A program made the position numbers and the translations under genes. Source: Candidatus Krumholzibacteriota bacterium (lineage in GTDB: Bacteria > Krumholzibacteriota > Krumholzibacteriia > LZORAL124-64-63). From it: a stretch of DNA of 41,472 bases. Within the stretch, counting starts at the first letter, position 1, and every line of letters begins with the position of its first letter. Shown here one piece after another: positions 1,351 to 34,426 of this stretch. Below the pieces are notes generated by a model. The model was not told where the DNA came from. It ran no database searches and saw only the letters and a list, made by a program, of their open reading frames with translations. The stretch is from positions 1 to 41,472 of the forward strand of contig JAJRZA010000094.1 in the NCBI GenBank assembly GCA_024275485.1. Reading direction: 5' to 3'.

Positions 1351-1482
1351 TTTTTAATTAAACTGATTTTGAAACGGTTTTTCCTTTTTACCCTTGAACG
1401 ATTTTTTGCCGCAATTGGATCCTAATTGTGTGTTACAATCCCAAAAAATATGATGCCCATTTCAACACCCACCGGAGGCAAC

Positions 1483-3183
1483 ATGCGTCACCTTATAATA
1501 GTTTTTTCAATCATCATTTCCACAGCCTCCTGGGCCACCGCCCAACAAACCTTCACTAATATCACAGCCAGCGCCGGCATCTACGGCCAAAACGGCCTCG
1601 GCCACGCAGTCGGCTGGTGCGACTTTGATGGTGATGGCGACGAAGACCTGGCCTTCTCCAACCAATCCGGCCCCGGTTTCTGGTTTTACCGGAACAACGG
1701 TGATGAAACCTTCACCGATATCACTTCCGCACAGGGCCTCGCCGGACTCAGTGCCCGAAAAATTCTCTGGGGCGAGTTGACGGGCGACGAGCGCCCCGAT
1801 CTCATCCTGAGCCACAGTGGAATAGAGTTTTACCGCAACAACGAATCCGGTTTTAACGACATCACAAATTTCTCCGGTCTTTCCGGCACACCCAAAGGTT
1901 TGCTCGATGTGGATCGAGATGGAAAGCTGGACGTGCTGACCGACCTGTCGGATCAATTGCGCTGGCACCGAAACATGGGCCTGGGTTCCTTCGCCGGTGC
2001 TCAAATTGTGGGTGCGGCTCCCGACACCTGGACCACGGTCTGTTTCGATTACGATCTTGATGGTGACGTGGACATCTATGTGGGCACGTATGGCACTGGC
2101 GTCAATCAGTTGTTCCGGAACAATGGTGACGGCACCTTTGCCGAAGTGGCTGCCAGTGCCGGAGTCGCCTTCAACAACGCAACCCACGGATTGGCGGTGG
2201 GCGACTATGACAACGATGGCTGGCCAGACCTTTATCTCGGCGGCTATTCCAGTTTGCGTTGCCGCCTCTATCGCAACCTGGGAGATGGCACCTTCGCCGA
2301 TGTCACATCTGCCACCGGAACCCAGGGCCACAACGATACCCGCACCGTCAGCTTTGTCGACTACGACAACGATGGTTTCCTGGACATATTCTCCTCCCAT
2401 CACGATTTCTATTCCTACAGCAACACTATGCAACACAACAACGGCGATGGAACTTTCACCGAAACTGCGGTCAGTCTTGGACTCTCCGGCGAATTCATAG
2501 GCGACTATTTCGGAGTGGGCTGGGCCGATTGCAACGGTGATGGTGCCATGGACCTTTTTGCCGCCGGGCACATCGACAAGTACCGGCTTTTCCGCAACGA
2601 TGAAAACCCCGGCAATTCATTTTCGCTCCGTTTGATCGGCACCGAGAGCAACTTCTCTGCTCATGGCGCCCGAGTTGATTTGTATGCAGGGAATACTCAT
2701 CTGATGCGCCAGGTCATAACCGACAGCGGTCGCAACGATGGCCATTCCGCGGTGCTGCATTTTGGCCTGGCCCAGGCTACTTTCGTGGACAGTCTGATTG
2801 TGCACTGGCCCAACGGGATGGTTCAAAAAACCGGGGGGTATGAAGCCAACCAGCTGATCGATCTGGTTGAAGATGATGGTCTCAGTCCGGTGCCCCCGGG
2901 GGCCCTCGCCTGGGATATTTCCAACAGCCCCAATCCCTTCAATCCAATCACGGTGATCAGGTGTGAATTCCCATCCCAAACATCCGTCGCTGTGGTGGAA
3001 ATATTTGACACACGAGGCAGCCTCATGCGCCGATTGGTCCCGCAAGTTGTATCTGAAGGCGTTGCCCAGGTAACCTGGAACGGAATGGGATCCCATGGCG
3101 AGGCCTTGCCCAGTGGCACCTATCTGGCGCGACTCACCGGAGGTCCGGAACAGGTGACCACCAAGTTGATGCTGTTGCAGTAG
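1483..3183 (+). CDS. Secreted FG-GAP/VCBS repeat protein with ASPIC domain and FlgD-like tail
   Basis: A 566-residue exported protein of unknown partner. MRHLIIVFSIIISTASWATA is a clear signal peptide; I start at the ATG at 1483 because GGAGG lies five bases upstream and the in-frame extension to 1426 has no signal-like features. At least six calcium-loop FG-GAP/VCBS motifs follow (DFDGDGDEDL near residue 47, then DVDRDGKLDV, DYDLDGDVDI, DYDNDGWPDL, DYDNDGFLDI, DCNGDGAMDL), predicting a beta-propeller. SLIVHWPNGMVQ near residue 437 is the ASPIC/UnbV signature. The C-terminus starts with NSPNPFNP near residue 481 and has WNGMGSHGEALPSGTYLARL, a FlgD-like/type IX-style tail common in FCB-group secreted proteins. 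It stands alone between an IS element and a convergent zinc transporter operon whose end is eight bases away. Adhesion or polysaccharide binding is possible, but no enzymatic residues are visible. Confidence 0.9.
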   Translation: MRHLIIVFSIIISTASWATAQQTFTNITASAGIYGQNGLGHAVGWCDFDGDGDEDLAFSNQSGPGFWFYRNNGDETFTDITSAQGLAGLSARKILWGELTGDERPDLILSHSGIEFYRNNESGFNDITNFSGLSGTPKGLLDVDRDGKLDVLTDLSDQLRWHRNMGLGSFAGAQIVGAAPDTWTTVCFDYDLDGDVDIYVGTYGTGVNQLFRNNGDGTFAEVAASAGVAFNNATHGLAVGDYDNDGWPDLYLGGYSSLRCRLYRNLGDGTFADVTSATGTQGHNDTRTVSFVDYDNDGFLDIFSSHHDFYSYSNTMQHNNGDGTFTETAVSLGLSGEFIGDYFGVGWADCNGDGAMDLFAAGHIDKYRLFRNDENPGNSFSLRLIGTESNFSAHGARVDLYAGNTHLMRQVITDSGRNDGHSAVLHFGLAQATFVDSLIVHWPNGMVQKTGGYEANQLIDLVEDDGLSPVPPGALAWDISNSPNPFNPITVIRCEFPSQTSVAVVEIFDTRGSLMRRLVPQVVSEGVAQVTWNGMGSHGEALPSGTYLARLTGGPEQVTTKLMLLQ

Positions 3184-22174: not shown

Positions 22175-22284
22175 GTCAAGTGATGGATATGTGAGTGGGA
22201 AGGAGGGCTCAACGCAGTTGTCATTGTTTACGCTGGGGTTAGCCACCCTCGCTAGTACGTACCTTGTTTTTTGGAGGTAACCTA

Positions 22285-22926
22285 ATGGTTCTTAGGAAAA
22301 TCACGGGTCTCTTTGTTTGTGCCTTGATTCTCGGCAGCGTGGCTTTTGCTACTGCCGGAATCCCCGACCCTCTTGAAAGTCTCGCTACCATGCCTAACGG
22401 CGGTGGCAGCCCTCTTGCCCTGTTCAATTTGCCTAACGGCAACGGCAATGGTTTCATGAATGCTCAAGTCGTTGGTGTTGGTACCGAAGTGGACGCAACT
22501 ATTGACCTTACCGTCAATGATGCTTTTGGTGTCCCTGTCACTAACTTCCCCGCGGAAGATATGTGGCTGGAATCCACCGGTGGTGGTATGGTTCCTTGCA
22601 TCGGCGGAACTGCTGCTGATCAGGATACCGATGATCTCGGTTATACCACCTGGGCCAATCCCTTGCGGGCTGGCGGCTATGATGCTGGTACCTGTGAAGT
22701 CATGGTCAACGGTAACCCGCTGATCAGCGCTGGCGTGCCCTTCGCTCTGGCTTTCAATAGCTCCGACATCACCGGTGACGGTGTTGTTAATCTGGCCGAC
22801 GTGGGACTCTTCTCGGGCGTCCTTTTTGGTGCTTACGATTTTTCGGCTGACTTCTTCGCCGATGGCACCATGAACTTGGCCGACGTTGGCCGCATGGCTC
22901 TCGGTCTGGGTGCTGCTTGCCCCTAG
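22285..22926 (+). CDS. Secreted protein with dockerin-like EF-hand repeats
   Basis: A 213-residue exported protein. MVLRKITGLFVCALILGSVA then FATA gives a signal peptide. The middle (residues 50-155) is beta-rich with two Cys (MVPCIGG and GTCEVMV), perhaps an Ig-like domain. Residues 161-211 hold two dockerin-type repeats: DITGDGVVNLADVGLFSGV and a second, FADGTMNLADVGRMALGLG, where the first calcium ligand is less regular. Dockerins bind cohesins, but in FCB and related bacteria such repeats often close surface proteins without any cellulosome, and no cohesin is visible here. GGAGG is seven bases before the ATG at 22285. It sits first in a run of three separately controlled secreted-protein genes. 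Confidence 0.85.
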   Translation: MVLRKITGLFVCALILGSVAFATAGIPDPLESLATMPNGGGSPLALFNLPNGNGNGFMNAQVVGVGTEVDATIDLTVNDAFGVPVTNFPAEDMWLESTGGGMVPCIGGTAADQDTDDLGYTTWANPLRAGGYDAGTCEVMVNGNPLISAGVPFALAFNSSDITGDGVVNLADVGLFSGVLFGAYDFSADFFADGTMNLADVGRMALGLGAACP

Positions 22927-23209: not shown

Positions 23210-23788
23210 ATGAAAAAGTTGGTAGTTCTGCTGATGGTCATGGTAATGGCCACCTCGGCTTTTGCCATTGTCGATCCCGACACTAACTCCATGGGGTTCT
23301 ACTTCGACACCGAGGCTGACATGCCTTGCAACGATGCCGTGACCCCATACGCGACCGTTCCTGTGGCCCTGACTCTGGTTAACCCCGACTTCGACGCCCT
23401 TTACGGTTTCGAAGCTGGTTACCACCTGGAAGGACCTGCCCAGGTTCTGAGTGTTGAATTTCTGAACCCCCAGGCCCTGAATGTTGGAAGTAATACCAAC
23501 ATGATCGTTGGATTCGGTTCCCCTACCGTTACATCCCCGATCACCACTGTTGCTATTGTCAACGTTCTGTACCTGTCCACCACCAACGAGCCTGTTGATT
23601 TCATGCTCCACGGCACCACCCCCAGCTCCATCGACCCGGCTTACCCCGTGTTCCTGCTGGCCGATGGTGTGCTTATCTCTGGTGGCATGAGTACTGTTGA
23701 TGGTCCTAATGCCCAGATCAACGGTGGTTGCCTTGTGGTAGCTACTGAAGAGATGAGCTTCGATAGCGTCAAGAGCCTTTACCGGTAA
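23210..23788 (+). CDS. Secreted protein with C-terminal SFDSVKSLYR tail
   Basis: A 192-residue exported protein of unknown function. MKKLVVLLMVMVMATSAFA is a signal peptide; the mature part begins near VDPDTNSMGFYFDTEADM and is beta-rich with few charges. It is a paralogue of the 24241 protein: both have N-terminal GFY.D.ADM, a central VG.G.P, and the same last 17 residues at 13 positions (VVATE..SFD.VK.LYR). The basic, aromatic end stands out from the bland body and could be a sorting or anchoring signal. AGGAGA is six bases before the ATG. A perfect terminator follows 45 bases downstream, so it is probably a single-gene, possibly abundant, transcript. Confidence 0.85.
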   Translation: MKKLVVLLMVMVMATSAFAIVDPDTNSMGFYFDTEADMPCNDAVTPYATVPVALTLVNPDFDALYGFEAGYHLEGPAQVLSVEFLNPQALNVGSNTNMIVGFGSPTVTSPITTVAIVNVLYLSTTNEPVDFMLHGTTPSSIDPAYPVFLLADGVLISGGMSTVDGPNAQINGGCLVVATEEMSFDSVKSLYR

Positions 23789-23832
23789 TTTGGTGCTACA
23801 GCTTTATGCTGTTCGCGGTTTTGCCGCAAAAA

Positions 23833-23864
23833 GCCCGGCTTTTTCAGCCGGGCTTTTTTTTTTT
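23833..23864 (+). terminator. Strong terminator after the 23210 gene
   Basis: GCCCGGCT and AGCCGGGC form a perfect 8-bp stem with a five-base loop, flanked by A and T runs (eleven T residues). Confidence 0.95.
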
Positions 23865-24240
23865 GATTGTCGAAATTTTCCGCAAAATGCATTGTTTCAT
23901 TTTTGTTTTTTCTGATTCCGACCTTTCAAACACTTGGAAAATTAACTATTTATAAGAAAATCTTGGATAAAGGCTTGAAAGGAACATAGCTTGCACGTAT
24001 TCTAATAATGTGAAAAATACCCACAACAACATTTTTTTGGTCAATTTTTTTTTGATTGGTCCGAAATCAATGCTTGTGGCCGAGGTTTTATGCGGGTATC
24101 TTTTCCACGACATAGTTGTGGCCAGGAATGACCGCTTGATCCCGCATCTGTAGGAACACACAACCACGGGGTCAGTGGCCAAATTGTGACTTCTGGACCC
24201 CAGGGCTGAAAATGGATTTTCCACGAAAGGGGAAATTAAC
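23865..24240. other. AT-rich gene-free region and long leader
   Basis: No gene is supported on either strand. The first 200 bases are AT-rich with several T runs. From about 24070 the region looks like a transcribed leader; TTGTGGCC occurs twice in direct orientation, around 24074 and 24115. AAAGGGGAAATTAAC provides the ribosome binding site of the next gene. Confidence 0.6.
23975..24003 (+). promoter_or_regulatory. Candidate promoter of the 24241 gene
   Basis: TTGAAA (23975-23980) and TATTCT (23998-24003) are 17 bp apart in an AT-rich setting; the resulting leader would be about 230 bases, unusually long. Confidence 0.4.
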
Positions 24241-24855
24241 ATGAAGAAAATGTTCTTTGCCGTCTCCGCGCTGGCGGCCCTCTCGCTGCTTGCTCCCACT
24301 ATGGGCTTTGCTCAAGGCGCTGACAATCAGCTGGGATTTTATTCAGACGCTGACATGAGTTCCTCTAGTTTGGATGCGGCTGCGTACTCCACTGTAGAGG
24401 TTTTCATGATAGTGACAAACCCCTACAATGATACCGAAAACCGCGCTATTGAATCCATCTTTGGCATTGAGTTTAGTGTCATGATACCTGCTGGTACGGC
24501 TCAAGTGATTAGTACAACTTGGACCAATAATGCAAATGCCATCGATGTTGATAATACCCCTGATAACCACATTGTTGGTTGGGGTCTTCCTGTTCCGACT
24601 GTTGGCGGTGTGATTCAATTGGGCACCAAGAGCGTCCTCTTGTTGACCGCTGATCCATTTGTGATCCACATTGCTCCCCACATCACAACTCCCAGCATTC
24701 CAGGTGCCATGGCTATCCTGGATTTCGACGGTTCGACCATTCAGCCCATCTATCCGTCTTCAGGCAGCTATGATAACCCTGTCTTTGGTTTCAACACCAC
24801 TGTTGTTGCAACCGAGCCTACATCCTTCGACAACGTGAAGGCTCTGTATCGGTAA
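24241..24855 (+). CDS. Secreted protein with C-terminal SFDNVKALYR tail
   Basis: A 204-residue exported protein, paralogue of the 23210 product. Signal peptide MKKMFFAVSALAALSLLAPT then MGFAQ; the mature part starts GADNQLGFYSDADM. It is beta-rich, with many Thr, Asn and Pro residues and no Cys in the mature part. The end VVATEPTSFDNVKALYR repeats the paralogue's tail. Identity in the middle is much lower than at the ends, suggesting the ends are under selection. GGGG precedes the ATG by about eight bases. It has its own terminator. Function is unknown; a structural or surface-layer-type role is only a guess. Confidence 0.85.
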   Translation: MKKMFFAVSALAALSLLAPTMGFAQGADNQLGFYSDADMSSSSLDAAAYSTVEVFMIVTNPYNDTENRAIESIFGIEFSVMIPAGTAQVISTTWTNNANAIDVDNTPDNHIVGWGLPVPTVGGVIQLGTKSVLLLTADPFVIHIAPHITTPSIPGAMAILDFDGSTIQPIYPSSGSYDNPVFGFNTTVVATEPTSFDNVKALYR

Positions 24856-24985: not shown

Positions 24986-25055
24986 GAAAATGAAACGATA
25001 CCCTGCTGTCGGCCCCTGAATCAGCTTCCCAATTTCCCAAAGTATGGAGTCCACC

Positions 25056-28000
25056 ATGGGTCCTGTTGTAACGCCATTTTTAACCATAGCCGCCCTTTGT
25101 TCAGGTTTTTTCCGAACAGGGGCACATGGCAAGACCATTGTCCTGGTGGCTTGTCTTCTGTGGGCCACCATTTTTGCTGATCCATCTTTTGCTTTGGGCA
25201 TCAAGTTGGTGCAAAGTGATCGTAGTGGATTGCGTTTAACCTTGGACGATATCTCGGTTCAGTGGCGGGAAATCCAATTGCAGGCTGGGGCGGTTGTTCT
25301 TTTTAAACCTGAGGCTCCTGGATTTGCCGTGTCAGGTGAACCGGGTGAAGTCGGCATTCCGGTCACCGGCGGTTGGCTGGTTGTCCCACCGGGGACCCAA
25401 CCCAAAATAGTATCCAATCAGGAAAAATGGGAATCTGCGGGGAACCGGCCTTTGATGGTACAGCCGGTACCGCAGATGATTCAAGGTGAAGGATCTGATT
25501 TTGTTTCCATGTCCCAGTTTTTGCTCCTGCCCGGTGAAACTCCACCTGCGGATGCAGCCATTCCCGGTTTTATAAGAACTGAATTGGGTGGGCCAGCCAA
25601 GGTTGTCAACGGCCCCGCCCTGGAACTGGGTGAAATCACCTGGTGGCGTGGGCATCGCATTGTGGCCTGGCGGTTGAATCTGGTCAGGCATGATGGTCGG
25701 ATTGCCTCGGAATCGCTGGCGGGTGGCAGCTGGCAAATAGATTTTGAAACCGGCAAGCAGTCCAATGATCCTGTTCCCCTCGGACACCGAGGCAAATTTT
25801 CCAACTCCCACGATGGGCGGTTTTCAGGGAATTTCCTCAATGGAAATCTCTTGAAGGATATGCCCACCGAAGCCAGCTTCCGTGGTCTTTCGACACCTGA
25901 GATTGGCAATAAAACGGTTCGTGGCCAAAAAAGTGGGACCCTGTTGGGCAATGTCGAGGGTCGGCTTTCCGTACAGCAATCCAATCTTTACCGCGTGACC
26001 TATGACCGTTTGCGCACTCTTGGCTACTTGCCTGACCAAACCGTCGAAGAAAGACAAATCCGTCTTTACCAACGTCGGTATCTTGAGCGGTTGGATGATG
26101 GATCAGGCCAGGCCCCCTATGTGGAAATTGAAGTGCCCATCCACATGTACGGCGAGGGAGATGACTTTGACGGTGATGATTTCTTCGTCTTCTACGGGTT
26201 GCGCTTGCGGGACGATACCGACTTCATGGCAGATGTCGGCCAGGGGCCTGAATCAATTTTTGGGTGCGGCGACAACATGGAGATGAACAACGAGGGGAAC
26301 TTATATTGGGTTTCCGCTTCCGAGCCGGAGCAGGGTTTTAGCTGGGCTCGCATGGCCGAACAGACTTTGCCGCCTGCGTCTTCCACACCGTTGGCCAATT
26401 ACCGGAGAGTTCAACATTATGAAGAGAGAGTTGCCTATCGCCAGAATAACCCTTTAATCAGCAGTGACAGGATTTACTGGAACGAGCGGCGGTCCGCCGA
26501 GGTCTCGGTTGGGTTCAACCCTTTGTGGAGCCCTGATTCCAACGGTACTCAAGGAACTATTGATATTGAGATGACCGGTTGGGTCATCAGCCCCAGTCAG
26601 ACACTTCATTTTGAACTGGTGACCGACAATACCCTGGTTACGCCCATAGAGGATTATGTTCTCGGGTCGAATCTTCCCATTGAAAGAAGCAATGTGTTCG
26701 ATCCTGCCGCTCTTGATGGCAGTGCATCGAAACTTGTCATGACCAATACTTCCGGCGGCTACCTGAACTCCTACCTGAACTGGGTCCGGCTTGGTTACGA
26801 TGCTCTGTACCGGGCCATAGGAGGTACCTTGATCTTCCATGGGAACAGTGCATCCGGTGCTCGACCCATTGTGGTCACCGGGTTCACCACCAATGATCTT
26901 GGCATGGTGGAGATCACCGATCCCCGCAATCCGGTTTTCATCACCCTGGATGATAACAATATCCTCCCCGATGGCGACAATTGGAAAATCTCCATCGAGC
27001 CCGTTCAAACCGATGGTCAACGGGAATTTGTTGCCCTTAGAGACATGGACGGTGTCGGCGTGGGTGAGTTTTATTACTATTCTTCTTCATTGGCTGAAAA
27101 CCAGGTCAACCCTTTGGAACTTGATGGGCCCGATGAACCTGATTTGATTGTGATCACGCACTCGGAATTCCGTGAGGCCATTGAACCCTGGATTGCTCAT
27201 CGCAAAAATCGCGCAGGCGGCGACCTGAAAGTTCATGTGGTGGATGTTGAGGATCTTTACGACTGGTATTCCGGGGGATTGAAGGATCCCTGGGCCTTGA
27301 AACGATTCACCAACCATGCCATCAACCATTGGGGTAGTTGGGCCTTGATGTTGGTTGGAGACGCCAACGAAAATGTGCTTGGCCTGGGTGTCTTGCCTGA
27401 AGCGAGGGCCTGGTCCTACGATTGGGTGCCCACGCACTATCACATCCAGGATACTAGCCAGTACAAGCCTGAAGTTCTGGCTTCCGACAAATGGTACGCC
27501 ACCTTTGATTCGGGCATGAATTACCCGTTTGAAGATTTCCCTGGGGCAGTGCGATCTCCCTGGCAAATGTACGTGGGCCGTTTCCCCTGCAATTCGGTGG
27601 CTGAACTGAACGTCATGATCAACAAGGTAGAAATAGTTGAAAATGTCCAGGCGGGGCAGGATTGGCGCAAACGGGCCATTCTGTTTGCCGATGACCATTG
27701 GTCCGAAGGTGGTTATGGCGCCGAAGGAGCTGCCGGGCTGCAGTACCGTTCCTACGAAAAAGCGTTCGCCGATGTGGAGCGGGATATTATGGTGCCGTTA
27801 TGGAATGGAGGCACACCGGTAACCCTTGAAACTGATACCCTGTTCCTGGATAACTATCTTAAGCCGTATTGGTTGGAGAATGGGAGTCCCGAAACGCGAT
27901 CCGTCAGTGAATATCAGAATGAAGTTGAGAATGGTTCTGCCTTGAACGACCTTCTGCAATCCCTGAGCCGGGGTGGTTTGATGGCCCATTACCAGGGCCA

Positions 28001-29465
28001 TGCCAACAGTTCCCTGCTATGTTCCGAGCGATGGGTTGAAGATGTGGATCACCCGCTCCTGAGACAGGATGTTTCATATCTGGTAAATGCCGCCAGCCCC
28101 TGGGTGTTTTTTGGCATGGGCTGTCATATTGCTGATTGGGCCCAGGATCCGGTTAATGCTCAAACCCGTTCGTGGGAACCCGCTCTCGGTGAAAAGTTCT
28201 TGAGTCGCAATGGTGGTGGAGCCAGTGCGGTCTATGCGAGTTCAGGTTACGAGTACATTTCCCACAACGAGGTGTTTGGCGATCGCATCATTCGTCGTTG
28301 GATTCAATCACCTCCCAACCAGGTGCAAGTGCCTTCAAGCGGTGGCCCCATTGCCGTGCGCAGTCGCTGGATGCTGGGTGAACTGATGTGGTACTGCGAA
28401 GCGGATATCCTGGCTGCCTACACGGGACCAACCTGGGGCCGGATCTATCGGGAAATGGTTGCCCAGTATACTTTGCTCGGTGATCCCCTGATGATGTTGG
28501 ATGCGGGGCCACCCGAAGTCACGGCTGTTTTGAGCGGTGAGCCGGATGAAGAGATCTCCGGGGAGATTGATCTGGTGGGGGCTGATCCGGCCAATATGCG
28601 GACCATCAATATCGATGCTCGGGATGAAGCGGGTATTTCACGCTTGCGGGCCATGGATTCCACTGGAGCGGACCTCACCGAAAGCATCGTCGTCAGCGAA
28701 ACCCGCCCCGATGGTGAAACAGATGACCAGCAGGTCTATTACGGTTTGAGTGTGCCACTGCGGCCTTTTGATCATCAAATCCGGGTGGAGGTCTTTGATA
28801 CGGCTTCAGCCCAGAGTTCGGATTATCACTACACTCTGGTGCTGAATGTCAGCCAGGATGCTGTCTTCCTGGTGGAAGGCGAAGTGGTCGACCCTAATCA
28901 GTTTGAATTCCTTTTGGACGTTCCGGTGGATTTCCAGTGCGAAATAACCAGTGGAGCATGGTTGCACGATGGAATGACCTATGATGTACAAGGTGAAAAT
29001 CTGGGTCTGAGCAATGTTGTTGTGGGGACGGGAAAGTCCAATAATCTCAGCCTTTCATTCACTGCCGTGGCCACTTCCACCACCGATGAAAACCGATCGG
29101 TGGTTCTGGTGATAAACGGATATGAAACCACTTATGTCCTGGAAGTCAATGACAATGGCGCTGCGGATGCCAGCATCAGTCAGGTTCTGAACTATCCCAA
29201 TCCCATGCGTGACGGAACCCGCTTCCTCTACCAAACTTCAGCCTCTTCTGGAGAAGGCAAGGTTCGGGTGTTTGCAGTTTCCGGTCATGTGGTGGCCAAC
29301 ATTCCGTTCACCTACTCAGGTGGGAACGAGGGTGTCATCGAGTGGAACGGGCGGGATGATGATGGCGATGGTCTGGCCAATGGTACATATTTGTATCGCC
29401 TGGAGATGAATACTCCATCGGGTGTGTTGGTCAGTCCCATGCAGCGTTTGGTGGTCATGAACTAA
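25056..29465 (+). CDS. C25 (gingipain/PorU-like) cysteine peptidase with FlgD-like tail
   Basis: Large exported protein, 1469 residues. The start at 25056 is chosen because GGAG is six bases upstream; the ATG at 25044 lacks one. The hydrophobic stretch TIVLVACLLWATIFADPSFA is the signal, after an unusually long 25-residue n-region. The C25 domain spans roughly residues 690-1160: DEPDLIVITHSEFREAI opens it, the catalytic His is likely H982 in AHYQGHANSS and Cys C1023 in FFGMGCHIADW. Beta domains follow, and the C-terminus has YPNPMRDGTRF and IEWNGRDDDGDGLANGTYLYRL, a FlgD-like/type IX-style tail. C25 enzymes include gingipains and the sortase PorU, but this tail suggests a secreted client rather than PorU itself. 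The substrate is unknown. It begins a three-gene unit with a SpoIID lipoprotein 16 bases downstream. Confidence 0.9.
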   Translation: MGPVVTPFLTIAALCSGFFRTGAHGKTIVLVACLLWATIFADPSFALGIKLVQSDRSGLRLTLDDISVQWREIQLQAGAVVLFKPEAPGFAVSGEPGEVGIPVTGGWLVVPPGTQPKIVSNQEKWESAGNRPLMVQPVPQMIQGEGSDFVSMSQFLLLPGETPPADAAIPGFIRTELGGPAKVVNGPALELGEITWWRGHRIVAWRLNLVRHDGRIASESLAGGSWQIDFETGKQSNDPVPLGHRGKFSNSHDGRFSGNFLNGNLLKDMPTEASFRGLSTPEIGNKTVRGQKSGTLLGNVEGRLSVQQSNLYRVTYDRLRTLGYLPDQTVEERQIRLYQRRYLERLDDGSGQAPYVEIEVPIHMYGEGDDFDGDDFFVFYGLRLRDDTDFMADVGQGPESIFGCGDNMEMNNEGNLYWVSASEPEQGFSWARMAEQTLPPASSTPLANYRRVQHYEERVAYRQNNPLISSDRIYWNERRSAEVSVGFNPLWSPDSNGTQGTIDIEMTGWVISPSQTLHFELVTDNTLVTPIEDYVLGSNLPIERSNVFDPAALDGSASKLVMTNTSGGYLNSYLNWVRLGYDALYRAIGGTLIFHGNSASGARPIVVTGFTTNDLGMVEITDPRNPVFITLDDNNILPDGDNWKISIEPVQTDGQREFVALRDMDGVGVGEFYYYSSSLAENQVNPLELDGPDEPDLIVITHSEFREAIEPWIAHRKNRAGGDLKVHVVDVEDLYDWYSGGLKDPWALKRFTNHAINHWGSWALMLVGDANENVLGLGVLPEARAWSYDWVPTHYHIQDTSQYKPEVLASDKWYATFDSGMNYPFEDFPGAVRSPWQMYVGRFPCNSVAELNVMINKVEIVENVQAGQDWRKRAILFADDHWSEGGYGAEGAAGLQYRSYEKAFADVERDIMVPLWNGGTPVTLETDTLFLDNYLKPYWLENGSPETRSVSEYQNEVENGSALNDLLQSLSRGGLMAHYQGHANSSLLCSERWVEDVDHPLLRQDVSYLVNAASPWVFFGMGCHIADWAQDPVNAQTRSWEPALGEKFLSRNGGGASAVYASSGYEYISHNEVFGDRIIRRWIQSPPNQVQVPSSGGPIAVRSRWMLGELMWYCEADILAAYTGPTWGRIYREMVAQYTLLGDPLMMLDAGPPEVTAVLSGEPDEEISGEIDLVGADPANMRTINIDARDEAGISRLRAMDSTGADLTESIVVSETRPDGETDDQQVYYGLSVPLRPFDHQIRVEVFDTASAQSSDYHYTLVLNVSQDAVFLVEGEVVDPNQFEFLLDVPVDFQCEITSGAWLHDGMTYDVQGENLGLSNVVVGTGKSNNLSLSFTAVATSTTDENRSVVLVINGYETTYVLEVNDNGAADASISQVLNYPNPMRDGTRFLYQTSASSGEGKVRVFAVSGHVVANIPFTYSGGNEGVIEWNGRDDDGDGLANGTYLYRLEMNTPSGVLVSPMQRLVVMN

Positions 29466-29481
29466 AATTGAGGGGGCACCC

Positions 29482-30849
29482 ATGCAGAGACGGATCTTTG
29501 CCCGGGGTTGGTTTGTTTTTCTGATTCTCGCTGGACTGTGGTCCGGTTGCGCCCCCAAGAGATTGGCTCCTCTGGTGGCAGGGGAGCAGCCCTTTGTTCA
29601 GGGGGATGAGTTGCGGGCGCCGACCCTGCTGAATGTGGGATTGGCGCAGGGCAGGCAGAACCTGCTGGTTTCCGTCAACGGGCCCTGCCTGGTTTTGGAC
29701 TCCCAAAGTCGCAAGAAATTGTTTCGTCTGGAACAACAGGGTGGGCAATTGCAGTTTTCCCGTCAGGGAGATTTCGTTGTCTGGTTGCACGGCTCGGTGC
29801 GGGGAAAGCAAGCCGGGATTGTCCTGCAGCCCGTGGACCCCGATTACCGGCTGACCCACGATGACAAGGACTACCGTGGCGATTTCCTGATCATTCCCTC
29901 ACCCAAAACCAACGGGCTTACACTGGTTAACCAGGTGGACATGGAGTCCTATCTCAAGGGTGTTGTGCCCTGGGAAATCGGCCGCCACGGCCAAGAAGAA
30001 TTGGCCGCTTTGGCTGCTCAGGCGGTGGCTGCAAGAACTTATACCGTCAGTCATCTTGGGAGTCGGAAAAGTCTGGGGTTCGATGTTTACGCCAGTGTCA
30101 TGGATCAGGTCTACAAAGGCAGCCGCCATGAAGACCCTCTTTGCAATCAGGCCATAGCTGAAACCCATGGCCTGGTTCTGAAAAGCAATGGCCGCCTGGT
30201 GGACGCCTACTACAGTGCCTGCTGTGGCGGGTCCAGCAGTCGGGTGGAAAAAGTTTGGCCACGCAAGGGCGAATCGTATCTCGTCGATCATCCTGATTCT
30301 CCTGGTTCCGGCAAAACGGCTTTCTGTTCCGAGAGCAAATATTTCCACTGGGTTGAAACCTGGTCAGGCGATCGTCTGGAAGAAATCCTTCAGGAAACCT
30401 TGCCCGCCTACATTGATTACATGATCCAAGGTGATCGTCCAGCCTGGGCTCGACCCATGTTTTCCCCCAGTGGCAGTGGTGCCGATCCGAACCAACCGGG
30501 CCGGCTTCACGATCTGGAGATCTTGGCCTACACCCCTAGTGGTCGAATTGCCCAACTGATGATTTCCACCGAGGCGGGAACCTACCATGTGCGCGGCGAC
30601 CGGGTGCGCTGGGTTCTGGTGCCCCCATCCGGGCAGCCGTCGATTCTGCGCAGTGCTCGATTCGAACTGGAAAAAGTGCGGCGGGATGGCCGTTTGACAA
30701 AGATTTCCGCCAGGGGTGGCGGTTATGGTCATGGTATTGGACTTTGCCAGACCGGGGCCCTGGAAATGGCCCGGCAGGGGTATTCCGCCTCTAAAATTCT
30801 ATTGCATTATTATCCTGGTAGTGTTCTTCAACGGCTTGAGGCCCAATGA
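29482..30849 (+). CDS. SpoIID/LytB-domain lipoprotein
   Basis: A 455-residue envelope lipoprotein. The signal FVFLILAGLWSGC ends in a lipobox (cleavage before the Cys at residue 23). SpoIID is a lytic transglycosylase that cuts glycan strands lacking stem peptides; the domain covers about residues 150-455. VNQVDMESYLKGVVPWEIG holds the likely catalytic Glu, AAQAVAARTYT follows, YYSACCGGSSS resembles the SpoIID zinc/structural site, and the end GGGYGHGIGLCQTGALEMA is the family signature. GGGGG precedes the ATG. Its TGA overlaps the GH3 gene by four bases. No sporulation genes are visible, and LytB-type homologues are common in non-sporing bacteria. Confidence 0.92.
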   Translation: MQRRIFARGWFVFLILAGLWSGCAPKRLAPLVAGEQPFVQGDELRAPTLLNVGLAQGRQNLLVSVNGPCLVLDSQSRKKLFRLEQQGGQLQFSRQGDFVVWLHGSVRGKQAGIVLQPVDPDYRLTHDDKDYRGDFLIIPSPKTNGLTLVNQVDMESYLKGVVPWEIGRHGQEELAALAAQAVAARTYTVSHLGSRKSLGFDVYASVMDQVYKGSRHEDPLCNQAIAETHGLVLKSNGRLVDAYYSACCGGSSSRVEKVWPRKGESYLVDHPDSPGSGKTAFCSESKYFHWVETWSGDRLEEILQETLPAYIDYMIQGDRPAWARPMFSPSGSGADPNQPGRLHDLEILAYTPSGRIAQLMISTEAGTYHVRGDRVRWVLVPPSGQPSILRSARFELEKVRRDGRLTKISARGGGYGHGIGLCQTGALEMARQGYSASKILLHYYPGSVLQRLEAQ

Positions 30850-32321
30850 TGGCCCCACGCAATTCAGCCAATTCCGCTTTGGCTGGAAAACTGATTGTGG
30901 GGCTGGCTGGCTCCTGGCCAACGACACAGGAGTGGAACTGGTTGCGGCTCTGGCGTCCGGCCGGGGTCATTCTTTTTTCCCGCAACGTTAAAGACTATTC
31001 CCAGTTGAAAGCCCTATGTGCTGCACTGAAGCAGTGGGTTCCCGGACTGCAAGTAATGGCTGATCATGAAGGCGGCCCTGTTTCGCAGCTGGCCGTCGCA
31101 GTGGGCAGGCCGCCTGTGGCTTGGTCTCTCGGTGTTTTGGATGATGTGGAACTGACTCGAAGGGTCCATGAAGAAACTGGTCATCGGTTGAAAAGCGTCG
31201 GGTTGGACCGGGTGTTGGGGCCCTGTGCCGATGTCATGAGTGAACCACGAAATCCCGTAATTGGTGCGCGGGCTTTTGGAGCCCACGGGGAATTGGTTTC
31301 GCGGCATGTGACTGCTGCGGTGCAGGGTTTGACCTCCGCAGGATTGTCCTGTTGCCTGAAACACTGGCCCGGCCATGGCGGCAGTGGCACCGACAGTCAT
31401 CTTGAAACCACTGTTGTGGGTATTTCAGCGGAGGACGAAATACCTTTTTACAGCGGATTGCGGGCAGGAGCCGACGCAGTCATGGCGGGCCATTTGCTAT
31501 TCGATGACAGAGCCCTGCCGGCAACTCTTTCCAAAGCTTTCCTCCAGAATACCAAAATTACCTTGGGTGTTGATGGCGTTGATTTTGTATTGTTGGCCGA
31601 TGACGTGAGCATGGGAGGTTTGCGCGAACCCATGGCGCGGTTGGGTGTTGTCCTGGATGTAGATCTTTCCGGCGATGCCGCAGAAGCCATGGTTGAGGTT
31701 GCAGCCTTGACCGTTCCCTGGTTTGAGCTCCTGGTGGCTGCCGGTTGTGACCAGTTGTTGTTGCGTGGTATTCCTTTTTCGGCTTTTCCGGTTGAGGGTA
31801 TCGAAGAGAATGCAGGTTTGCAGCGGCTGCCCATAAACCCGGAATCGGTAAAAATGGAGGCCACCGGCTGGGGCGGTTCTGCTGACGAGGCCTATCGCGA
31901 AACCCGCCTGCGTTGCCGAAAGAATTTTTGTGACTCCCATGGTGATCTGGTTTTTCTGGATCTTGCTCGCCGGGATCGGTGGCAGATCGCAGGGGGATTG
32001 GGGCCTGCCCACTGGTCTCGGTGGGACAAGATGTTGGCCGCGAAATTCGGCAGAGTTTGGCGGGATGAACAATTGGATCAGGCCTTGCCCAATGGCGCTC
32101 CCGTTTCAAATCTTTTGATCACCAGCCACCGTCCTTTGCCGTTGCACTGGGAAGCCGGACTCTGGGCTCAAAGCCTCAAGAGTCGGTTGGCTTCGGCTGG
32201 GCGATGTTTGGTCATGGGGCATCCGTCCCTGGCCGGAAATTTGCTGAATTATCTTGGTGGGGACTGGGTTGTTGATGCGCTGTATGATGTTAGTTGTGAG
32301 GACTTTAGCCCGGTTGCCTGA
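30846..32321 (+). CDS. Glycoside hydrolase family 3, beta-N-acetylhexosaminidase (NagZ-like)
   Basis: Probable beta-N-acetylglucosaminidase, 491 residues, with a TIM barrel in the first 340. KHWPGHGGSGTDSH is the NagZ-type loop with the acid/base Asp-His pair, and LLADDVSMGGL carries the nucleophile Asp. ILFSRNVKDYSQL, DHEGGPVSQL and VLGPCADVM also fit. The remaining 150 residues form a second domain that shorter NagZ enzymes lack. No signal peptide is obvious, so a cytoplasmic muropeptide-recycling role is likely. It is translationally coupled to the SpoIID gene, suggesting joint wall turnover. Confidence 0.9.
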   Translation: MMAPRNSANSALAGKLIVGLAGSWPTTQEWNWLRLWRPAGVILFSRNVKDYSQLKALCAALKQWVPGLQVMADHEGGPVSQLAVAVGRPPVAWSLGVLDDVELTRRVHEETGHRLKSVGLDRVLGPCADVMSEPRNPVIGARAFGAHGELVSRHVTAAVQGLTSAGLSCCLKHWPGHGGSGTDSHLETTVVGISAEDEIPFYSGLRAGADAVMAGHLLFDDRALPATLSKAFLQNTKITLGVDGVDFVLLADDVSMGGLREPMARLGVVLDVDLSGDAAEAMVEVAALTVPWFELLVAAGCDQLLLRGIPFSAFPVEGIEENAGLQRLPINPESVKMEATGWGGSADEAYRETRLRCRKNFCDSHGDLVFLDLARRDRWQIAGGLGPAHWSRWDKMLAAKFGRVWRDEQLDQALPNGAPVSNLLITSHRPLPLHWEAGLWAQSLKSRLASAGRCLVMGHPSLAGNLLNYLGGDWVVDALYDVSCEDFSPVA

Positions 32322-32707: not shown

Positions 32708-34426
32708 ATGCAGATTAGAAAGCCGTTGGAAATCGTCATTTTGAGTCTTGTCCTGATGGTAGGATTGTTGGGTTGCAACGGCCAGGAGGAATCCGGCGTG
32801 AAAAGCCAATCGGCCATGGGTTCCTGCGACTGGGTTGGAGAAGGCCATGTCAGCGTGGTTGACGATTTGCAGGCCCGCCTTGAGGCCTACGTCCCCACCG
32901 AACTGACTCCCGACATCAGCCACCTCGATGCAACCCAGAATGAGGTCTTGAACAAACTTGTGGCAGCCAGCAAACTTATGAACGAGATTTTCCTGCTGCA
33001 GGCCACACCCTGCCATGAAGAATTGCTGGCGGTAATCGATGGATTTCCTGCCGATCAGCAGGCCGGTTTGCGGCGTTATTTCTCCATCAATGTCAGCCCC
33101 TGGGATCGACGTTTTCATCATGAACCTTTTTTCGGGTCCTGGAAGCATCCTGCCGGCGCGAACTACTACCCTCTGGATCTTACGGAGCAGGAGATAGCCC
33201 TGATTTCCGATTCGACCCAGGGTTTTGCTGGTCTGTTCACCATGATCCGTCGCGACGAAAACGGAGCCCTGAGGGCCATTCCCTATTCGGAATTTTTCAA
33301 ACCCCAGCTGGACGAAGCCGCCGGGTTGCTGCGTGAAGCAGCTGTTTTGACCGCCAACGAATCCCTACGGGCTTTCCTGAATTCCCGGGCCGATGCCTTT
33401 GCCACGGATGACTATTACGAATCGGATATGCTATGGATGGATTTGGACGGCGTGGTTGAAATCACCATTGGCCCCTATGAAACTTATGAAGATGGACTTT
33501 TCGGCTACAAGGCGGCCTTTGAAAGCTTTGTCACGGTGACAGACCCTGTAGAGTCGGCCCGTTTGGCCAATTTCAAGGATGAGCTGCCCTGGTTGGAAGC
33601 CCGGTTGCCTATCCCCGACGAAATGAAGAATACCAACCGTGGGGGCGAATCCCCCATTCGGGTGGTGGATGAAGTGTACAGTGCCGGTGATACCCGCACA
33701 GCAGTACAGACCATCGCCTTCAATCTGCCCAATGATGAGCGCGTGCGCGAGGCCAAAGGAAGCAAAAAAGTTCTTTTGCGAAACGTGATGAAATCGAAAT
33801 TCGACAATATCCTGATGCCCATCGCCAAGGTGCTGGTGGTGCCCGAGCAACTGGGTAATTTGACAGCCGAGTCTTTCTTCCTGCACACTTTGTGGCACGA
33901 AATGAGTCATGGTCTGGGCCCGGGAAAAATCACCATTGATGGCCGTCAGACCGAAGTCAGGTTGGAGTTGAAGGAAACCTACAGCACCCTGGAAGAGGCC
34001 AAGGCCGACGCCATGGGCGAATGGGATATCTTTGTTTTGACCCGGGCGGGCCGGGGGTATTTTTCCGAGAATATTCTCAATGAGCAGTCGGCCACTTATT
34101 TGGCTGGACTGTTCCGGTCCGTTCGATTTGGCATCGGCGAAGCCCACGGTCAGGCCAACGCCATTCAATACAATTACCTGTTGGAAAAAAAGGCCGTTCT
34201 CTTTCATGAGGACAGCGGCCAGTACAGTATAGATGTGCCAGTGTTTGAAAAGGCCATCGCTGATCTGGTGGCTGAAATTTGCGTCATCCAGGCCAATGGC
34301 GACTACCAGGGGTCAGTGGACTTCATCAAAAGGTATGGTGGTGTAACCGATATGCTGGCTGCTTCCCTGGCTAGACTGGACGGTATTCCGGTGGATCTGG
34401 AACCGTTGTTTCCCACTTACGAATAA
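32708..34426 (+). CDS. Dipeptidyl-peptidase III-like (M49-type) zinc lipoprotein
   Basis: A 572-residue predicted lipoprotein: the signal ends in VGLLGC, with Cys at residue 20. The zinc site is HEMSH at residues 397-401 within HTLWHEMSHGLGPG, and the second ligand region is EEAKAD at 429-434 after LKETYSTL. This HExxH plus EExxAD pair is the pattern of bacterial DPP III-family relatives, whose true M49 members carry HELLGH with an extra residue; the five-residue form here is typical of the shorter bacterial branch. Expected activity is removal of dipeptides from peptide N-termini in the periplasm or on the surface, inferred only. AAGGAG is seven bases before the ATG. It converges with another lipoprotein gene across a shared terminator. 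Confidence 0.85.
   Translation: MQIRKPLEIVILSLVLMVGLLGCNGQEESGVKSQSAMGSCDWVGEGHVSVVDDLQARLEAYVPTELTPDISHLDATQNEVLNKLVAASKLMNEIFLLQATPCHEELLAVIDGFPADQQAGLRRYFSINVSPWDRRFHHEPFFGSWKHPAGANYYPLDLTEQEIALISDSTQGFAGLFTMIRRDENGALRAIPYSEFFKPQLDEAAGLLREAAVLTANESLRAFLNSRADAFATDDYYESDMLWMDLDGVVEITIGPYETYEDGLFGYKAAFESFVTVTDPVESARLANFKDELPWLEARLPIPDEMKNTNRGGESPIRVVDEVYSAGDTRTAVQTIAFNLPNDERVREAKGSKKVLLRNVMKSKFDNILMPIAKVLVVPEQLGNLTAESFFLHTLWHEMSHGLGPGKITIDGRQTEVRLELKETYSTLEEAKADAMGEWDIFVLTRAGRGYFSENILNEQSATYLAGLFRSVRFGIGEAHGQANAIQYNYLLEKKAVLFHEDSGQYSIDVPVFEKAIADLVAEICVIQANGDYQGSVDFIKRYGGVTDMLAASLARLDGIPVDLEPLFPTYE

Follow-up and report, generated by a model that had tools for sequence, protein, structure and literature searches.

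A 17-residue C-terminal tail on unrelated secreted proteins of Krumholzibacteriota and other phyla, and its association with a PorU-type C25 peptidase

We found a tail of about 17 residues at the extreme C-terminus of secreted proteins that otherwise belong to unrelated families, in Krumholzibacteriota and in further phyla, and its genes recur beside a C25 peptidase that forms a PorU clade of its own, which we named PorU-T. We think it probable that the tail is a minimal C-terminal sorting or processing signal handled by PorU-T as a dedicated PorU-type enzyme. This reading explains the data best because the tail occurs on 76 host families, is terminal, follows genome-specific dialects, is swapped with the C-terminal domain (CTD) of the type IX secretion system (T9SS), co-occurs with SprA and PorU-T and is linked to the gene of PorU-T, which has an intact catalytic dyad.

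The window locus and its tail pair

The window, that is, the whole 41,472-nucleotide stretch of DNA that was analysed, contains the following features.

22264..22926, + strand: dockerin-like secreted protein, Ig-like module plus dockerin-like module at the C-terminus, tail absent (homologue profile against PDB and Pfam)
23210..23788, + strand: tail protein A, 192 aa, signal-peptide-like N-terminus (ORF, ends ...VVATEEMSFDSVKSLYR)
23735..23785, + strand: C-terminal tail of protein A, VVATEEMSFDSVKSLYR (sequence, pattern search)
24241..24855, + strand: tail protein B, 204 aa, signal-peptide-like N-terminus, distant paralogue of A (ORF, ends ...VVATEPTSFDNVKALYR)
24802..24852, + strand: C-terminal tail of protein B, VVATEPTSFDNVKALYR (sequence, pattern search)
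25044..29465, + strand: PorU-T, PorU-paralogue C25 peptidase, 1473 aa (PF01364, NF033707, tree, catalytic residues)
29482..32321, + strand: SpoIID-like and NagZ-like genes, named from resemblance (tblastn synteny)

An initial annotation had described two secreted proteins with 17-residue endings that match at 13 positions, and these endings are indeed present in both ORFs. Upon removal of the tails, the bodies of A and B showed only 30% identity across 125 residues (E 2.6e-6), in line with the strongly diverged middles noted there; judged by this alignment, the two proteins are distant paralogues. The C25 peptidase gene, placed about 200 bases downstream by the same annotation, starts at 25044, which is 188 bases past the second stop. 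The neighbouring protein encoded by ORF 22264-22926 was likewise found to be dockerin-like and to lack the tail. Its profile, built from 16 homologues, matched the PDB dockerins 2y3n_B (E 1.4e-6) and the scaffoldin X-dockerin 2b59_B (1.9e-4), and Pfam Dockerin_1 was detected in 4 of the 16 members of the homologue set; the prediction that this product is a dockerin is well supported. Its true start is probably the ATG at 22285, which matches the start of the homologue at locus L017.

The AlphaFold model of protein A was poor, with a mean pLDDT of 47.9, and a likeness to cohesin obtained with Foldseek (E 1e-3 and weaker) was dropped since a model of pLDDT 48 is too poor for it. Profile searches with 62 array proteins against PDB and Pfam gave no match, cohesin included.

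The tail: form, hosts, dialects and distribution

The consensus of 171 tails from at least 11 genomes was V/T-P/A-V/T-E-x-x-[ST]-W-[GS]-x-[IV]-K-x-L-Y-R, with W-[GS]-x-[IV]-K-x-L-[YF]-(R) as the core. In the 3.98 Mb genome of the window, the [VI]K-x-L-Y-R-stop pattern RTNAARNNNYTNTAYMGNTRR gave 16 matches and the reversed control none, and the tail is therefore not a product of chance. Positions outside the search pattern were also kept, namely T or S before the W (151/171), G or S after it (150/171), E four residues before and P or A six before. Among all ORFs in the collected DNA, 171 carried the motif within 12 residues of their end, whereas a lax form occurred internally in four and the strict form in none, so that internal occurrence of the tail was rejected. 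Few further sites appeared when no stop was required, and those inspected terminated 0-10 residues past the R. Additionally, codons for identical tail residues within the same genome differed in 61% of cases, compared with 65% for unrelated codons. This divergence indicates that no DNA cassette was copied and that selection acts on the peptide.

After trimming of the signal and tail regions, BLASTP (E<1e-3) placed the hosts of the 171 tails in 76 families, and the tail is thus carried by non-homologous secreted proteins which have just their last 17 residues in common. The hosts in the genome of the window comprise relatives of the A and B pair together with many unrelated secreted proteins. 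A simple heuristic predicted a signal peptide in 134 of 152 tail hosts. Pfam matches among the hosts included lamin-tail, NHL, FG-GAP propellers, glucose dehydrogenase (GSDH), redoxin, plastocyanin, cohesin and beta-helix, and the NCBIfam matches included choice-of-anchor J and X and ScyF. The initial annotation had cautioned that ancestry shared by the two paralogues might explain the tail, and A and B are indeed paralogues. We rejected paralogy alone and 3'-end gene conversion within one protein family as the origin, and consider them next to impossible in view of the 76 unrelated families, codons diverged to the unrelated level and occurrence in at least five phyla.

The tails were found to follow genome-specific dialects: VAT-E/D..W-D.VKSLYR in the genome of the window, PSATE.TTWG.IKALYR in G213, SPVEE.TWG.IKALYR in G288 and TPAR/T..TWGR.IK in G272. 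With each host family contributing a single tail in a given genome, the observed value was reached by 0/2000 label shuffles at positions -7, -6, -5, -4, -2, +1 and +3 and by 1/2000 at +5 (p<0.001 at most variable positions, -7 to +5). Unrelated proteins thus drift together within a genome, which implies a common trans-acting reader of the tails. Genome-wide base composition could contribute to the dialects, although it does not obviously predict the choices of P versus A and V versus T.

The distribution was scored with a pattern that requires W, F, L or C three residues ahead of [VI] and a stop directly after the R. Within Krumholzibacteriota, the tail occurred in 67 of 80 genomes, at 0-19 per genome, with 6 reversed matches in total. 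Outside the phylum, 209 genomes were sampled; six of them carried 11-35 tails (two families represented twice and two once), and nearly all of the remainder had 0-2, the same as the control. In a second phylum, 38 of 47 genomes were positive. The tail is present in at least three further phyla, hence at least five overall, and is nearly absent elsewhere.

Array genes of lineages negative for the strict pattern ended in variants such as SWGAIKSLF, SFGAVKARF, NVKALF and MYK, and we therefore attribute most apparent absences of the tail to drift. In some of these lineages the terminal basic residue is missing (SWGAIKSLF-stop), and the tail lysine was the sole invariant column across the 62 array proteins. 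At four loci (L181-L184, genomes G007-G010), the array tails have drifted to SFGAVKARF/GRF.

PorU-T, its gene linkage and the type IX secretion system

The C25 ORF at 25044..29465 matched Pfam PF01364 with E 1.5e-53. Its match to the PorU model NF033707 (163 bits, E 6.5e-48) lay under the 420-bit cut-off and spanned residues 307-1159, extending outside the C25 domain; from these scores we regard it as a PorU homologue and not an equivalog. Against PorU2 (NF052324), it scored 69.8 bits, under a cut-off of 450. An FlgD/T9SS-type-A-like C-terminal domain lies at about residues 1384-1473 (TIGR04183 20.8 bits, cut-off 23), and no Propeptide_C25 match was found in Pfam at the threshold used. A copy of the gene that is 79% identical is present in Candidatus Krumholzibacteriia.

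Phylogenetic analysis, performed with a quick method and containing some long branches and uneven composition, placed the PorU-T clade (SH-aLRT 100) apart from the canonical PorU clade (SH-aLRT 100). PorU-T took in every copy from Krumholzibacteriota as well as every second copy from the tail-rich genomes, while second C25 proteins of T9SS-positive, tail-less genomes branched outside it. The catalytic His and Cys were kept in 54 of 54 clade members. Tail-rich genomes contain two PorU relatives, one above or near the cut-off and a second that is closer to the window protein; the canonical copies adjoin PorV wherever positions were comparable. Among the 20 genomes outside the phylum that were scored, PorU-T was found in 14/14 tail-rich genomes and in 0/6 T9SS-positive, tail-poor ones. 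G181 and G182 each carry a single doubtful tail and possess canonical PorU copies only, and these candidate tails were rejected as a working system since both genomes are without PorU-T. The G182 candidate is a lone TSWGGIKKLYR tail on a beta-helix-like protein (locus L139, complement strand, G182:C68:81443-81472) and may reflect horizontal transfer or chance.

The gene order in Krumholzibacteriota is dockerin-like gene, one to seven tail genes, PorU-T, SpoIID-like gene and NagZ-like gene, and it holds from close relatives to other families of the phylum. Most loci with sufficient sequence have a homologue of the dockerin-like gene on the upstream side of the C25 gene, and according to tblastn the SpoIID-like and NagZ-like genes usually follow PorU-T at most loci of the phylum. 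With the motif fixed beforehand, a tail gene was present upstream of PorU-T at 19 of 30 Krumholzibacteriota loci, many of the others being truncated. Among 14 PorU-T genomes outside the phylum, 7 had a tail gene upstream of PorU-T in the same orientation and no more than about 10 kb away, compared with 0 of 6 canonical PorU loci. A relaxed motif gave 25/31 linked loci, but it was shaped after these genes had been seen, and the weight of the linkage rests on the counts with the earlier motif. The tail-rich genomes G144, G285, G292 and G301 have no tail gene beside PorU-T. The order of dockerin-like gene, tail genes and C25 gene is seen again in other phyla. Dockerin-like ORFs were found at the G303, G213, G144 and G285 loci, and in G144 and G285 the dockerin-like gene was kept at PorU-T with the tail gene absent. 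The initial proposal of a link between the tail and the C25 peptidase is thus borne out by gene linkage and by the separate PorU clade, while the enzyme-substrate relation suggested with it is one that we infer.

Clustering of neighbouring genes initially picked generic CTD-bearing proteins, and this led to evidence for a swap of signals. Homologous mature domains were found to end in the tail or in a T9SS type A CTD, never both: eight tail proteins have type A CTD-bearing homologues, and the type A CTD pattern was found in 0/165 tail proteins. Three tandem paralogues in G213 (L100:5152-8968) end in a T9SS CTD, a tail and a T9SS CTD, respectively; in this triplet, sorting signals have been exchanged naturally within a single domain family. 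TIGR04183 and PF18962 for type A, and TIGR04131 and PF13585 for type B, were not among the families listed for the 76 hosts, where for type A 1 and 9 single-member families lay outside the listing; type C was judged through NCBIfam comparison only. In the window itself, an FG-GAP/UnbV protein at 1426-3183 has an FlgD-like, T9SS type A-like CTD, and both signals are therefore used in one genome.

SprA was present in 6/6 tail-rich genomes outside the phylum, compared with 59/209 overall. In the second phylum, it was found in 25 of 26 good genomes; the tail-positive, SprA-negative genomes were all less than 90% complete, and SprA-positive, tail-negative genomes occur. This pattern indicates that tail presence is nested in T9SS presence, although shared phylogeny may explain part of the nesting: the tail-bearing phyla, all with T9SS, may be related to each other, and the co-occurrence is confounded accordingly. 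An apparent absence of SprA from the genome of the window was rejected as evidence against T9SS, because PF14349 has little power in this case and a more closely related query located the protein at G000:C15:12951-18989, with 75% identity to the SprA of a congener. PorV-family proteins are abundant, and with about seven candidates scored per genome their copy number was uninformative as a discriminator.

Comparison with known systems and alternative readings

The tail resembles the T9SS CTD/PorU system (types A, B and C; TIGR04183, TIGR04131, cl41395; NF033707) in combining a Sec signal with a C-terminal signal on many unrelated cargos, in its PorU-family C25 enzyme, in the presence of T9SS and in homologous domains that bear either signal. 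In contrast, it has about 17 residues, no folded domain and none of motifs A-E, and the enzyme linked to it belongs to a separate PorU clade under the curated score and is not the PorV-adjacent copy. The T9SS signals described so far are of types A, B and C, at about 43-100 residues (PMC10202324, PMC11969387). Since the known ones fold into domains 43 residues long or longer (PMC11969387), a peptide of 17 residues would be out of the ordinary as a signal for T9SS. With PEP-CTERM/exosortase, GlyGly-CTERM/rhombosortase and MYXO-CTERM/myxosortase, the tail shares a short tag on many unrelated secreted proteins and a co-distributed enzyme, and some hosts come from families tagged in that way elsewhere (choice-of-anchor J and X, ScyF). 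Unlike those tags, it lacks a transmembrane helix, and whereas their enzymes are intramembrane, its candidate enzyme belongs to the soluble, surface-type cysteine peptidases. No hydrophobic stretch of a PEP-CTERM-type tripartite tag was seen in the inspected tails, nor was such a model among the NCBIfam families listed. PorU-T shares the C25 fold and the His/Cys dyad with gingipains and other C25 peptidases, yet it branches apart and matches PorU beyond the C25 domain. The tail system thus appears to work like the PEP-CTERM, GlyGly-CTERM and T9SS CTD systems and to belong to none of them, as it has neither a membrane helix nor a folded domain. Of the initial annotation, the reading as a sorting or processing signal is supported, and the likeness to PEP-CTERM or T9SS tails is not. 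In the literature searched, the tail sequences were not found as a bacterial motif, and no paper joined Krumholzibacteriota with a C-terminal sorting signal; one secretome paper mentions the phylum without such a tail.

In the reading that we favour, tail proteins would reach the periplasm through the Sec signal peptide, and the 17-residue tail would then be recognised by PorU-T, itself probably exported via its own type A CTD. Export would follow the T9SS pathway through the SprA translocon. At the cell surface, PorU-T would remove the tail, as its analogy to PorU suggests, and the mature protein would be released or attached. PorU-T could instead be a neighbour that serves the dockerin/tail array only.

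It is also conceivable, though rather unlikely, that the tail serves T9SS as a minimal export signal to which a shuttle of the PorV/PorP type, or the translocon itself, binds, with PorU-T linked for another reason and the tail processed by canonical PorU or by nothing. The nesting within SprA-positive genomes, the alternation with type A CTDs on homologous domains and the abundance of PorV-family proteins would all suit such a signal, as would the fact that type B CTDs have their own PorP/SprF shuttles (PMC10202324). However, the tail is unlike CTD motifs B and D, some lineages lose its terminal basic residue, and the tail arrays are linked to PorU-T rather than to canonical PorU.

We consider it improbable that the tail stays uncleaved and serves for non-covalent docking, tethering its proteins to the surface or to a scaffold such as the adjacent dockerin-like protein. 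The dockerin-like gene does belong to the conserved locus, and the spacing of the core W, I/V and L/Y appears amphipathic-helix-like, but docking does not account for a C25 paralogue that is conserved at the locus with its catalytic residues intact, and the resemblance of the array proteins to cohesin was weak in the low-confidence model and absent in profile searches. Short hydrophobic-aromatic C-terminal tags are read by degradation and quality-control proteases in other systems, and a tag that marks proteins for degradation, chaperoning or quality control in the periplasm would be of this kind; we regard it as very improbable here, as the tail is a constitutive feature of dozens of secreted proteins of diverse type (NHL, GSDH, redoxin, plastocyanin and lamin-tail) and swaps with T9SS sorting domains.

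We see roughly even chances that these observations represent an undescribed, phylum-crossing sorting system, in which a helix-free, fold-free 17-residue tag is read by its own PorU-type C25 transpeptidase, beside or inside T9SS, in at least five poorly studied phyla, and in which dozens of unrelated surface proteins in each genome are covalently attached or released. Once a C-terminal sorting tag is known, every bearer can be listed and the whole surface proteome named; with this tail, 10-40 exported proteins could be annotated in each genome of uncultured phyla whose cell surface is almost uncharted. If this holds, a short-peptide branch with an enzyme of its own exists within the T9SS/PorU machinery, most work on which concerns Bacteroidota and large folded signals, and the minimal signal read by PorU-type enzymes and shuttles becomes directly testable.

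A further ORF of the window, at 32708-34426, encodes a secreted or lipoprotein-like product with the sequence HEMSHG, which may be an M49-type peptidase; it is kept at 48-68% near the locus in relatives.
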